Below, in pieces: positions 23,600 through 28,189 of a stretch of 64,000 nucleotides of DNA; positions within the stretch are counted from its first letter, which is position 1; each line of letters begins with the position of its first letter. Origin of the DNA: Saccharopolyspora soli. Its GTDB lineage: Bacteria > Actinomycetota > Actinomycetes > Mycobacteriales > Pseudonocardiaceae. The notes beneath the pieces are model-generated. The model saw only the letters and a list, made by a program, of their open reading frames with translations. It was not told the origin of the DNA and did no database searches. Position numbers and translations under genes: made by a program. The stretch covers positions 1 through 64,000 of the forward strand of contig NZ_JALBWV010000044.1 of NCBI RefSeq assembly GCF_022678645.1, given 5' to 3'.

Positions 23600-24056
23600 T
23601 CAGTGCTGCGCGTCGAGTCGGCCGCCGTAGTGCATGGCGAGTGTGTTCAACGCTTGTTTCCACCCTACTATTTTCCCTGTTATATTTGAACGGTTCTTGA
23701 GTGGGTTTTGGATCACGAGATAGAGAACTTTGAGCGCGGCCTGTTCGTTAGAGAAATGACCGCGACGTCGGGTGGCTTGCCGAAATCTGGAATTCAGGCT
23801 TTCGATCGCGTTCGTCGTGTACACCAGCCTGCGCAACTCCGGCGGGTATGCCAGGAACGGGGTGAACTGTTCCCAGCTGTTGCGCCATAGTTGGATCATC
23901 GCGGGATATGTATCCTCCCACTCGGCGCAGAAGTCGCTGAATTCTGCTTCCGCTATCTCCGGATTGGGGGCGGTGTAGATGAGCTTAAGTCGTTTCGTGA
24001 TCGCCGACCAGTACTTCTTCGACGCATACCGCAGACTCGCCCGCACAAGGTGTTCT
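23600..24056 (-). pseudogene. IS256-family transposase, 3' half (left flank of element)
   Basis: About 150 C-terminal residues of a mutator-type transposase: REHLVRASLRYASKKYW, FTPFLAYPPELRRLVYTTNA, IESLNSRFRQATRRRGHF (with the catalytic Glu region) and LNTLAMHYGGRL. The first two catalytic Asp residues are missing. It is cut just before the HLVRASLRY motif, exactly where CTGAACTA (24057-24064) begins on the plus strand. The 5' half is not present on the other side of the inserted element. Confidence 0.8.
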
Positions 24057-24070
24057 CTGAACTACGGAGA

Positions 24071-26529
24071 TCACATTTCTGGGTGGGTTGTGGCGCTTGG
24101 TTGGTCGGCGGCGAGGGTGCGTCCGACGAGGTGGGAGAAGTGTGGCATTCCGATGTGGATTGTGTTGGTTCGTTGGGCGAGTTCGTTGAGTTGGGCGAGT
24201 TTTTGGTCGGCTCCGGCGAGGCTGGTTTTGAGTCCTTCGACTTCGCCGAGCCAGCCTTCGCGGTGGGCTTCGTCGATGCGGGCGAGGAGGTTTTCACGGA
24301 CCTCGGTGATGCGGCGGCGTTGTGCGGGATCGGGTCGAAGCAGCGGGCATCGCAAGCAGGAGTGTTCATGGATGCATGGGGTGCTGTAGGCGCGGCCGCA
24401 CGTTCCCATTGCGACTTTGCGGTGTTCGAAATGGCCCAGGAACTCGTCCCATTCAGTGGGTCGGAGTTCGGTATTCTTCGCTGGGGCGTAGTTCACGGCG
24501 GCGTGCGATAAAGGCCCGGTGGCCGTTGATGACTTCTTCGGGATAGACCGTCTTGTAGCCCATGGTGGTGTTGATGTCACGGTGCCCGACCACGAGCTGC
24601 GCAATGTGCGGCGGCATGCCGTTCATGACGGCGTCGGTGATGAAAAGTCTGCGGAAATCGTGAGGCAGGAACCGCAGTGGCTGGCCGTCGGCTCCGGCGA
24701 AACCGGTCTTGGCCAGGGTGTGGTTCAGCAGACGGCGAATGGCCGGTGGGGCGATGGGACGGCGTTCGCCGCCGTAGTGCCGCTGGAACAGCAGCGGCAT
24801 CGGCGGGTTCCAGGTCTTTTCGTGGTAGTCATAGGCTGCGACCAGTAGAACGGCTCCGCCTGGTTCGCGGATGCGGCAGATGATGGCTGAGAGCACGTCG
24901 GCGAGTTCGGGGCTGATGACCAGCAGCCTCTCCGCGTCGGTCTTGGATGGGGCGATGTGCAGCAAGGGAATCAGTTCGCCGGTACTGGGCAAGGTGTATT
25001 GCACGAAGCTGTGATGGGACAGCTCGCAGAGCTCCTCGACCCGTAAACCAGTATGCCGCAGGACTTCCACCGCTGCCCAGGCCCAAAAGGCCTGGTGTTC
25101 TTCGAAGCTGAGGTCGCGGCGGGTAGCCGTTTCCCGGTCTTCGGCCCAGATCTTGGCGGCGCCGTCAGGTCGGACGAGCACGCGGCGTCGTAAGGTCTGG
25201 CCGGCAGCGGTGAACACCTCGCCGGGTGTGGTGGCCTGGGCAGCCTGCAGGAGGTCGGTGGCGGCGCGGCGTTCGGTGTTGACGGAGGTGACCAGGCTGG
25301 GCAGCAAGGGCAGGCGTTCCCGGGTGCGTTGGTCCATGCGCGATTTGCGCCGCTGGTGCGACTTTTTGCGGGACATGTCCTCGTCGCGGATGCGGCATGG
25401 CGCGGCCCAGGGACCCCAGCGGGCAGGGTCTTCCATGGCCCACTGCGCGATGTCGAGGTAGAAGGCCCGGACGGTTGCCAGGGTGGAAAGGCCGGATTCG
25501 CGTGCGAGGATGCGTTGTTTCCAGCTCGAGGAGACCTCGGGTGCCAGCCGCAGCGAGTCGATGCCGGGATGATGTTGTTCCAGTTCGGCCCAGAACAGCT
25601 TGCCGAGTTCTGTTGCCAGTCGCTGCAGAGTCACATAGTCCACTGTGGCTTGTCGTTCGCGAAGGTAGCGGACCAGCAGGTCCCGGACCGGGTGGCAGGC
25701 GATGCCGTAACGGTCGATGAGCTGCTCGATGCTGATCTGGCCGGTGGTGCCAAACGCCCGCACTGCCGGTGGCGCGGTGTCATCGAAGACGCCGGCAGCG
25801 TGCAGCAGTTGGTAGAAGTATCCGCTGGTGGTCTTGCCGCCCCCGATGTCATGCACGGTCTGCAGGAGCTGCAGGCGGTCGCCGACCGTGATGTCGGCGA
25901 TCGTCCCGCCTTTGGCAGCCAAGATGACCGCGATGCGACACAACGCTGTGGTCTTCGTCGCCGCGCCGGCTGGATCGGCCTGGCACTGGGCTTGCAGTGT
26001 TGCCCAGCCCTGCGGGTCTCGGGTGCGGGCAAGTGTTGCAGCCAGTTTTTCGGTGTCCGCGGTGTCATCAGCCAAACCGGATCAGGCCGGATAACCTCAC
26101 CGCAGATCAACGCCATCACCCCCGCAGAAGCGAGGGTGCATCCGCGTTTTGTCGATATCGCGTGCCCGGCAGTTGATACCAGCCATTGACCGACGTCGTA
26201 TTTCCAGTCGGTGTTGTTGCTTCGGCCGGCGGTGCCCGCGATCCAGCGGTCCTGCCAGTTCTCGCCGGGATACTGTTCCAGCCAGTCCAGCACCGTTTTC
26301 ACTCCGTGATACTGCACCTGCTGCGCATGTGCGTCCTCGCGGCGAACGGCGGGGCCGACAACCGTTGCAGCACCGCGCCTTTGGGTTCCCGGGCGTGTGG
26401 GAAGCCCGCAGCGGCAGGACGCGGCGGAAACGCTGAAGCAACTCACCAGCGGCCTGCAGACTTTGACGGCTTGTAACCACAGTCCCGCCCGGCCGCAGGT
26501 GCTGCAGACCGTGTCCGCACGCTGGTCAT
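24071..26529 (-). pseudogene. TnpB-like tyrosine recombinase, frameshifted
   Basis: The second recombinase of the element. Its ATG (26529-26527) overlaps the TGA of the first gene. Successive frames give CSTCGRAGLW (zinc-ribbon-like), WLEQYPGENWQDRWIAGTAG and LICGEVIRPDPVWL. From 26075 a long clean frame carries the integrase catalytic core HTGLRVEELCELSHHSF (Arg), LPHDFRRLFITDAV (HxxR-type) and VVGHRDINTTMGYKTVYP (His/Tyr). That frame stops at TGA 24453 right after YRTPTH. One base further the family-typical tail resumes: EWDEFLGHFEHRKVAMGTCG and IHEHSCLRCPLLRPDPAQRR, ending at 24071. At least three frame changes are required. Confidence 0.7.
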
Positions 26530-27799
26530 CGCCGCTCCGTTCCGAACAGCACATCCGGTGCCGCCGGGCGATAACAGTGCTGCAGCACAGGATCGGGCGT
26601 AGTCGGCTTGTCCGGCGCGTCTGGCGGGCATGGTGAGCCAGCACTGAGGCGATCACGTCCTCGGGCAGCGGATTGAGATACAGCTGTGTCGTCGTCAACG
26701 ATGCGTGTCCGAGGACCCATTGCACGTCCGTCAGCGGCATTTCCGGGTCACGGGCCATCCGGTAAGCCGCCGTATGCCGCAGATCATGAAGCGTCCAATT
26801 CGCACCCAAAGTGGCGTTGACCCGCTCGAACATGCGTTGAGCAGCGTGATAGGTCAGCCGCCGAAACGGCCGCCGCAGAGTCCACCACAACGGCTGATCA
26901 CCTCCCACCGGCACCAGGCCATGCACCTGCGCCTGGTAAAGCCGCAACCACACGAACGCGTCCGGACTGGCAGGCAGCGGCTGCATCGCCCTGGAACCTT
27001 TGCGCACAACCGTGATCAGCTGCTGTCCCGGATCCGTATCGCCCTGAGTGACGCCGAGTAGTTCGCAAGCCCTGGCACCGGTCGAGACCCACAACGCCAC
27101 CAACGCCCGGTCCCGATGCGAGGACAGCCGGGCAAACAGTTCGTTGAACCAGTCATCCGGGATACTGCGCGGCTTCCGCTGCACCAGCCTCGGCCGGTAC
27201 TGCCCCGAACGCTCATGCCGATGCGGCTCCATCGGATTGTGATGGGCATGAGCACGCCGCCCCCTCCGGACGAGAGGAAAGGGGTTGACCATCGGCCCGC
27301 TACCGGCATCCCGATGGAAATCGCAAAAGCCCCGCAGCACGCTTTCGCTGTGTGCTTTCGTCGCCGAGGCATACTTCCGTCCCGGAGACGTCTTGCCAGT
27401 CACCGAATTAGACTTTCCTTGCGTCGCCCCGGATTCCGCCACGGCAGCATCAGCCGCCTGACCGCGGTGCCGTCCGCTCGGCCCCATCGACTTATCGGTG
27501 AACTGGATCCAGCAACTGAAGTCACGGGCCTCGACACGGGTCGCTTGATCCCAAGGGACCTCCACGGCCCACAAGAACCGGAACCACCGCAGTAATGTCA
27601 TCGCATACGACCGCTGCGTGCTCACGGACCGGCCACACGCCCGCAGATCCTTCAGGAACTCCGCGACCGGCACCACGACCATCCCACGCGGATCAAGCAG
27701 CTGCCACGGATCCCACGGATCGCCGGTTTCCTTCAGCGAGCCTTCCAACGGCACGACCAACCCGGCCAGGTCCCTCGGCTGCCCCTCGGACACGATCAT
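26526..27799 (-). pseudogene. TnpA-like tyrosine recombinase, late frameshift
   Basis: The first recombinase of the element, from ATG 27799. It has an N-terminal SAM-like core-binding domain (SVSTQRSYAMTLLRWFRFLW). The catalytic domain shows Arg in STGARACELLG, HDLRHTAAYRMARD and the His/Tyr box VLGHASLTTTQLYLNP. After SVLAHHAR, near 26630, the natural end APDVLFGTERR lies in a neighbouring frame and stops at 26528-26526. In the original frame the ORF reads on into tnpB sequence. Catalytic residues are intact, so the core enzyme might still fold. Confidence 0.7.
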
Positions 27800-27856
27800 G
27801 GCGAAGCACCGTATCGGCACACCCACTGAACTGCAAAAACACCCCAACTAGTTCAG

Positions 27857-28183
27857 TCAACAGGTGATCCGGAACGCGATGCGCTTCGTCTCCTACGGCG
27901 ACCGCAAGAAGGTCGTCGCCGGAATGCGCGCTATCTGCACTGCACCGACCCTGGAGGCCGCCGAGATCGCGTTCAAGGATTTCGACAAGCAATTCGGGTC
28001 CCACTATCCGGCCGCAGTCGAAGTATGGAAGCACACCTGGAACGACTTCACCCCGTTCCTCGACTATCCGGCCGAGCTGTGCCGGGCCGTGTACACCACA
28101 AACCTGATCGAGACCATCAACTTCCAGCTGAGGGGCAGCGATCTGCGCCGGTTTGTCCTGCGGCCTCTGGGTTTTCGCAGGTG
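27857..28183 (+). pseudogene. IS256-family transposase internal fragment (right flank)
   Basis: Begins directly after TAGTTCAG and reads QVIRNAMRFVSYGDRKKVVA, WNDFTPFLDYPAELCRAVYT and TNLIETINFQLRG, then loses homology near 28140. It is a different IS256 member from the one at 23600, yet is cut at the equivalent codons (HxIRNxxR) and points the other way. Both ends of the gene are missing. Confidence 0.75.
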
Positions 28184-28189
28184 ATCATG

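Follow-up and report, generated by a model that had tools for sequence, protein, structure and literature searches.

The window analysed here, a stretch of 64,000 nucleotides from Saccharopolyspora soli (contig NZ_JALBWV010000044.1, positions 1 to 64,000), carries an element of 3808 bp (24053-27860) in which one short (tnpA) and one abnormally long (tnpB) tyrosine recombinase gene, both broken, lie adjacent and co-directional, flanked on either side by part of an IS256-type transposase gene. Its features are given below in order of position; labels L0xx/L1xx denote loci, Gxxx genomes (G000 being the genome of the window itself) and Cxxx contigs, and L096 is an annotated plasmid copy.

23600..24046, minus strand: IS256-type transposase no. 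1, 3' part, directed outward from the element; uninterrupted copies in two other genomes are 85% identical
24047..24052, minus strand: 6-bp spacer of native type belonging to IS256 no. 1 (gene strand CACCTT)
24053..24064, plus strand: tnpB-side end of the element, TTCTCTGAACTA, conserved among relatives
24113..24454, minus strand: tnpB C-terminal part, other frame; 81% identical to residues 696-809 of L096 TnpB
24459..26051, minus strand: tnpB main part with the tyrosine recombinase domain; 77% identical to residues 162-693 of L096 TnpB; Phage_integrase E 6.5e-13
26045..26335, minus strand: tnpB N-terminal part, other frame; 38% identical to residues 67-163 of L096 TnpB
26621..27799, minus strand: tnpA, the shorter tyrosine recombinase; 71% identical to residues 1-381 of L096 TnpA; Phage_integrase E 1.2e-16
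27849..27860, minus strand: tnpA-side end of the element, TTGACTGAACTA on this strand, conserved among relatives
27861..27866, minus strand: the element's own 6-bp spacer, CACCTG in the inward direction
27867..28184, plus strand: IS256-type transposase no. 2, 3' part, directed outward from the element; matched at 75-83% identity, starting with the spacer, by seven places in other genomes

The two flanks are C-terminal parts of two different IS256 members, both pointing outward. The Transposase_mut profile matched the left flank at positions 256-371 (E 9e-31) and the right flank at 257-346 (E 2.3e-17), and under the NCBIfam IS256 profile the two parts begin at positions 217 and 218; the near-equal starts indicate that both genes were cut at the same codon. 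Thus motif positions and profile matches bear out the preliminary description of the locus, made from the letters alone, as a two-recombinase element between outward-facing IS256 3' halves cut at one codon. The inverted ends named there, CTGAACTA at 24057 and TAGTTCAG at 27849, are present on direct check, but the boundary had been drawn too far inward: TTCT and TTGA recur in relatives, so the element reaches four bases further outward on each side. Because the resulting ends TTCTCTGAACTA and TTGACTGAACTA are conserved in the family, the outer AGAA and TCAA belong to the element and not to the target. A target composed of AACA plus CGG, suggested by the similarity of the two flanks, is ruled out: the bases concerned belong to the element end and the spacer, and the shared AACA is split evenly between the two.

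A single genome scan gave 33 related loci, and the addition of plasmids and further genomes brought the set to 109 tnpB loci. Across loci totalling 1.14 Mb, the 12-bp ends were found 75 and 81 times at up to one mismatch, their reversed-letter versions once and not at all. Both ends were recognised in 72 of the 109 loci at up to two mismatches of 12 (59 at up to one, 28 exact), the remaining loci being truncated at contig ends, degenerate or more distantly related. Among the closer relatives, homologues with other termini did not stand out; the distant ones (about 40-48% in tnpB) often lacked recognisable ends.

The window copy is a relic, as its tnpB is split over three frames (26335-26045, 26051-24459 and 24454-24113) and the final 32 of 413 tnpA residues are unrecognisable. 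Relatives with clean frames encode a TnpA of 413-427 residues (L096, L030, L031 and L032) and a TnpB of 810-832 residues (L096, L030 and L032). Both the window element and L096 have two recombinase genes, which fill each 3.8-kb element; 18 bp in the window and 38 bp in L096 separate the last tnpB stop from the outer boundary of the tnpB-side end, and neither has room for a TnpC gene. An additional frame of about 130 residues lies between tnpB and the tnpB-side end in L016 and L018. At the same place the element at L097:7619-11257 holds a second, nested and distant recombinase pair (38% in tnpB). The element at L035:5987-10569 has about 4.6 kb inserted within tnpB itself, between residues 508 and 510 in window numbering.

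Six bases lie beyond each element end. Several comparisons show that those on the tnpA side are inherited with the element while those on the tnpB side are native to the target: i) two identical copies of 3841 bp in G437 both have TGACTG at the tnpA end and differ in the tnpB-side six bases; ii) four identical copies in G056 all have CCCCAG; iii) the tnpA-side spacer was identical in 10/10 element pairs at identities of at least 95% and in 10/12 at 85-95%, against 6/10 and 1/12 for the tnpB-side spacer, the pairs being non-independent and several of the first ten representing the same, hence uninformative, insertion; iv) at lower identity both spacers drift, the tnpA side less (mean differences of 1.0 vs 3.0 at 78-85% and 2.7 vs 4.0 at 60-72%); v) the uninterrupted site agreed with the tnpB-side spacer in 6/6 bases for L096 (two copies), L137 and L022 (the same two copies) and L141 (one copy), whereas the tnpA-side spacer agreed at just 2-4 of 6. 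The single uninterrupted copy for L097 agreed at 5/6 with either spacer and did not discriminate. By these comparisons the target retains its own six bases and the element brings its own. The earlier suggestion of circle junctions that swap flanks can be no more than half correct: a 6-bp spacer does stay with the tnpA end, but movement beyond those 6 bp finds no support.

The nearest relatives, carried by Rhodococcus plasmids, each interrupt an IS256 gene by simple insertion at the codon cut in the window: under the IS256 profile the 5' parts of L134 and L097 stop at position 218 and the 3' part of L096 begins at 217, and in L096 and L097 the tnpA end adjoins the 5' half, the tnpB end the 3' half. 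The window element is sister to L096/L097 in trees of 59 elements (support 0.92 for tnpA and 0.999 for tnpB). A site preference for a conserved IS256 motif, as first proposed, is thus upheld, and interrupted IS256 genes do recur (L096, L134 and L097), but the targets, though not random, are to judge from the flanking frames not IS256 alone. Codon bias was used to select a single open frame for each flank, which gave 158 frames, of which 144 were scanned (the other 14 being duplicates, short or from doubtful ends). Matches in NCBIfam, alongside which a Pfam scan was made, were to IS21 (23), Tn3 (9), IS1380 (7), ISKra4 (7), IS256 (5), TadA-type ATPase (5), IS481 (4), NlpC/P60 (4), tyrosine recombinase (4), IS5 (3) and IS110 (3); these counts come from the best 25 of 82 families matched, depend on frame choice, include the window's own two flanks and are of families that overlap. 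Single scans of 20 flank frames identified ISKra4 on both flanks of L108 and L109, IS256 for L096, L134 and L097, IS5 for L035, Tn3 for L014 and IS21 for L137, L141, L022, L139 and L098, and returned no NCBIfam match for L086, L020, L031, L083 (two frames) or L030. Likeness to L035 suggests an IS5 target for L031, and the family tally together with motif reading suggests an NlpC/P60 target for the L086/G056 lineage.

Targets are also common to other close groups (L013/L014/L025/L136 and L026/L029/L108/L109); an exception is L135, which is 79% identical to L025 but differs in spacer and has flanks matching no other. The arm consensus outside the spacer is weak. An open frame ran through the rejoined site in 33/44 distinct insertions against 1699/4000 mismatched joins, a weak test that the window passes though its halves cannot belong together. 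The lineage of L076, L077, L078, L128 and L086 includes four identical copies within a single genome, and its flanks look like NlpC/P60 endopeptidase genes interrupted ahead of the FDCSG motif. The elements at L030:4163-8415 and L085:5657, by reading, sit in the cysteine/histidine region of a related element's tnpB.

Elements of the family insert in either orientation. The identical copies of G437, a single-contig genome, lie in opposite orientation in two ISKra4 genes, both cut at about profile position 390/391, and matching flank pairs between different elements comprised 65 in the same and 24 in opposite orientation (a pair required a protein match plus a DNA match near the junction, and 0/19739 random pairs reached the DNA threshold). 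Homologous flanks running in the same direction were found for the window alone among 64 elements with both flanks in a protein test, which detects homologous flanks only. A second 3'/3' case is L035, whose length was insufficient for that test: both its flanks are IS5-type 3' parts, 95% identical over 429 bp.

At the tnpB end of the window element the gene strand reads CACCTT and then GTGCGG. Of four nearest relatives of IS256 no. 1, three have CACCTG and one CACCTC at the spacer, and an intact IS256 in L169 has CACCTT there, so the tnpB junction fits a standard insertion with a native-type spacer. Relatives of IS256 no. 2 have CACGTG (six of seven as printed, the seventh having the same motif at a one-base offset) against CACCTG at the tnpA side of the window, which argues that the element brought this spacer with it and was inserted in the flipped orientation. 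Each junction, as read from these alignments, is thus normal-looking, one per orientation and into different IS256 genes; the pair is not.

On balance we think it probable that the window holds a decayed element from an IS256-targeting clade, two opposite insertions of which later recombined into a 3'/3' hybrid. The reading builds on ends, targets, spacer behaviour and the use of both orientations, all shown by comparison of the loci; from these we infer a circle and recombination between two copies. The circle would have the core TAGTTCAGAGAA - 6 bp - TTGACTGAACTA. On integration, possible in either orientation, the carried spacer with the tnpA end would be linked to the left arm of the target, while the tnpB end would meet the target's native 6 bp and, beyond them, its right arm. 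In the window, the tnpB junction would then stem from a standard insertion into IS256 no. 1, and the tnpA junction from one into IS256 no. 2 in the flipped orientation. The two copies would have recombined, most likely homologously between their roughly 3.8-kb bodies, through an inversion or an exchange linking two replicons, to give a hybrid carrying two 3' halves and a reciprocal one with two 5' halves that was lost or lies outside the assembly. A recombination or inversion event had already been raised in the preliminary description, and we regard it as the best reading because both junctions look like normal insertions into two different IS256 genes.

Several findings weigh against this reading: i) neither of the IS256 5' halves severed at the junction turned up in the genome's own assembly, where a 5' part like that of IS256 no. 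1 stops at the end of contig C177, 132 bp before the site is reached, and the best match for the 5' half of IS256 no. 2 was 71% over 103 bp, so that the proposed search for the missing halves came out negative or was cut by a contig end; ii) no second close copy of the element was found in that assembly, the left 200 bp matching once; iii) a mosaic body would have favoured recombination, but the tnpA and tnpB trees agree and the discordance between A-half and B-half is weak (z -2.9, the second most extreme of 78 pairs). A mosaic body as proof that different elements recombined was set aside: the tnpA and tnpB identities to L096 looked discordant, yet in either tree the window falls with L096/L097, and the reference comparisons made show a fast-evolving middle region.

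The same data would fit homologous recombination, recombinase-mediated arm exchange or misassembly. Under arm exchange, an element residing in IS256 no. 1 would have recombined at its tnpA-end junction with an empty IS256 no. 2 target in flipped alignment, swapping the outer arms and keeping the 6-bp spacer at the tnpA end. The same rule would account for ordinary insertions, and the palindromic CACGTG of the IS256 no. 2 relatives would make either alignment equally good; yet no head-to-head 5'-5' junction was found in the genome and same-half flanks are rare (1/64 by the protein test, plus L035), and we judge this course unlikely. An assembly artefact, in which two element copies, one per IS256, had the wrong flanks joined, is in our estimate somewhat less probable still. 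The assembly is indeed a draft of 184 contigs in which some IS256 copies, including the IS256 no. 1-like 5' part, break at contig ends, but one 80-kb contig runs through the element, the 200-bp stretch over the left junction is single, and L035 has a like arrangement, though likewise on a small contig. Simple insertion where two IS256 remnants, each cut at this motif, already met head to head, with nothing direct in its favour, would need a previous break of two different genes at one codon, and is scarcely credible. More broadly, and tentatively, the family may move by a spacer-conserving, strand-biased tyrosine-recombinase transposition in which the 6-bp overlap is a property of the element, the target keeps its own 6 bp and both orientations are used; arm exchange could then also take place when an inserted copy meets a second, empty site, so that the genome would be rearranged at conserved codons of transposase genes, with the window and L035 as possible products. 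We consider this proposal possible but doubtful.

The genome's other relative, L083:4185-8824 (G000:C142), is 54% identical and 4640 bp long, with both ends exact and GGCGTG as its tnpA-side spacer; neither of its flank frames matched an NCBIfam family. In L005 and L006 (G000:C169 start and C177 end) and L003 (C36 start), three IS256 copies meet a common foreign terminal sequence, GGCTCTGGCGCAGTCTCCGTGA, at junctions near contig ends and within the same stretch of the IS256 gene; it is probably another insertion sequence in IS256 genes.

As to known systems, a Tn554-like class of two-recombinase elements without TnpC was described in Actinobacteria in 2012 (Van Houdt; PMC3414803), with a short Famint36 and a long Famint41 recombinase, TnpC given as 'none', and pRHL2 and pBD2 among the members (PMC3414803). 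The window tnpB (query P0001) is 57% identical to the pRHL2 copy (L141) and 53% to the pBD2 copy (L146) over 98% of its length. By this homology and by its gene content (adjacent short and long tyrosine recombinase genes in the same direction, in Actinobacteria, with no TnpC) the window element is a member of this class, differing in that it is broken. Thus the presence of two recombinases and no TnpC, by which the preliminary description set the element apart from Tn554 and RIT elements, is correctly described but not new. The passages of the 2012 account on the actinobacterial subgroup give no ends, targets, spacer rule or orientation (PMC3414803), and no report of ends, targets and spacers for the class was found in the open-licence literature (including PMC3414803 and PMC8138268, as far as their relevant parts go). 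End sequences, targets and a spacer rule are now given for a class described mainly from proteins. As many of the target motifs lie within transposase genes of other mobile elements, the insertions disrupt other transposons.

RIT elements are likewise recombinase-only transposons with inverted ends, but have three recombinases where the window element has two. Tn554 and Tn552-II of Staphylococcus, which have a circular form, share with the window family two tyrosine recombinases, target specificity and a short spacer beside the ends, but carry tnpC, which the window element does not. The SEs resemble it in a 6-bp spacer with one side favoured in the circle (PMC10214605), but have four core genes (intA, tfp, intB and srap) against two in the window and L096. 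The main difference lies in the fate of the spacer. Tn552-II is described as having a native 7-bp spacer at the left end and a donor spacer brought in at the right, a pattern said to fit Tn554 (PMC12486829), and in SEs the circle spacer is reported to end up at the opposite end after integration (PMC10214605). Thus Tn554 proper, SEs and Tn552-II are described as bringing a donor spacer to the opposite end with each move, whereas in the window family, by comparison of inserted copies, the tnpA-side spacer is inherited and the tnpB-side one native. The rearrangement in the window is a secondary matter, and the inherited spacer is of greater interest; the contrast between inherited and brought-in spacers among Tn554-like elements bears on which strand is exchanged at excision and integration.

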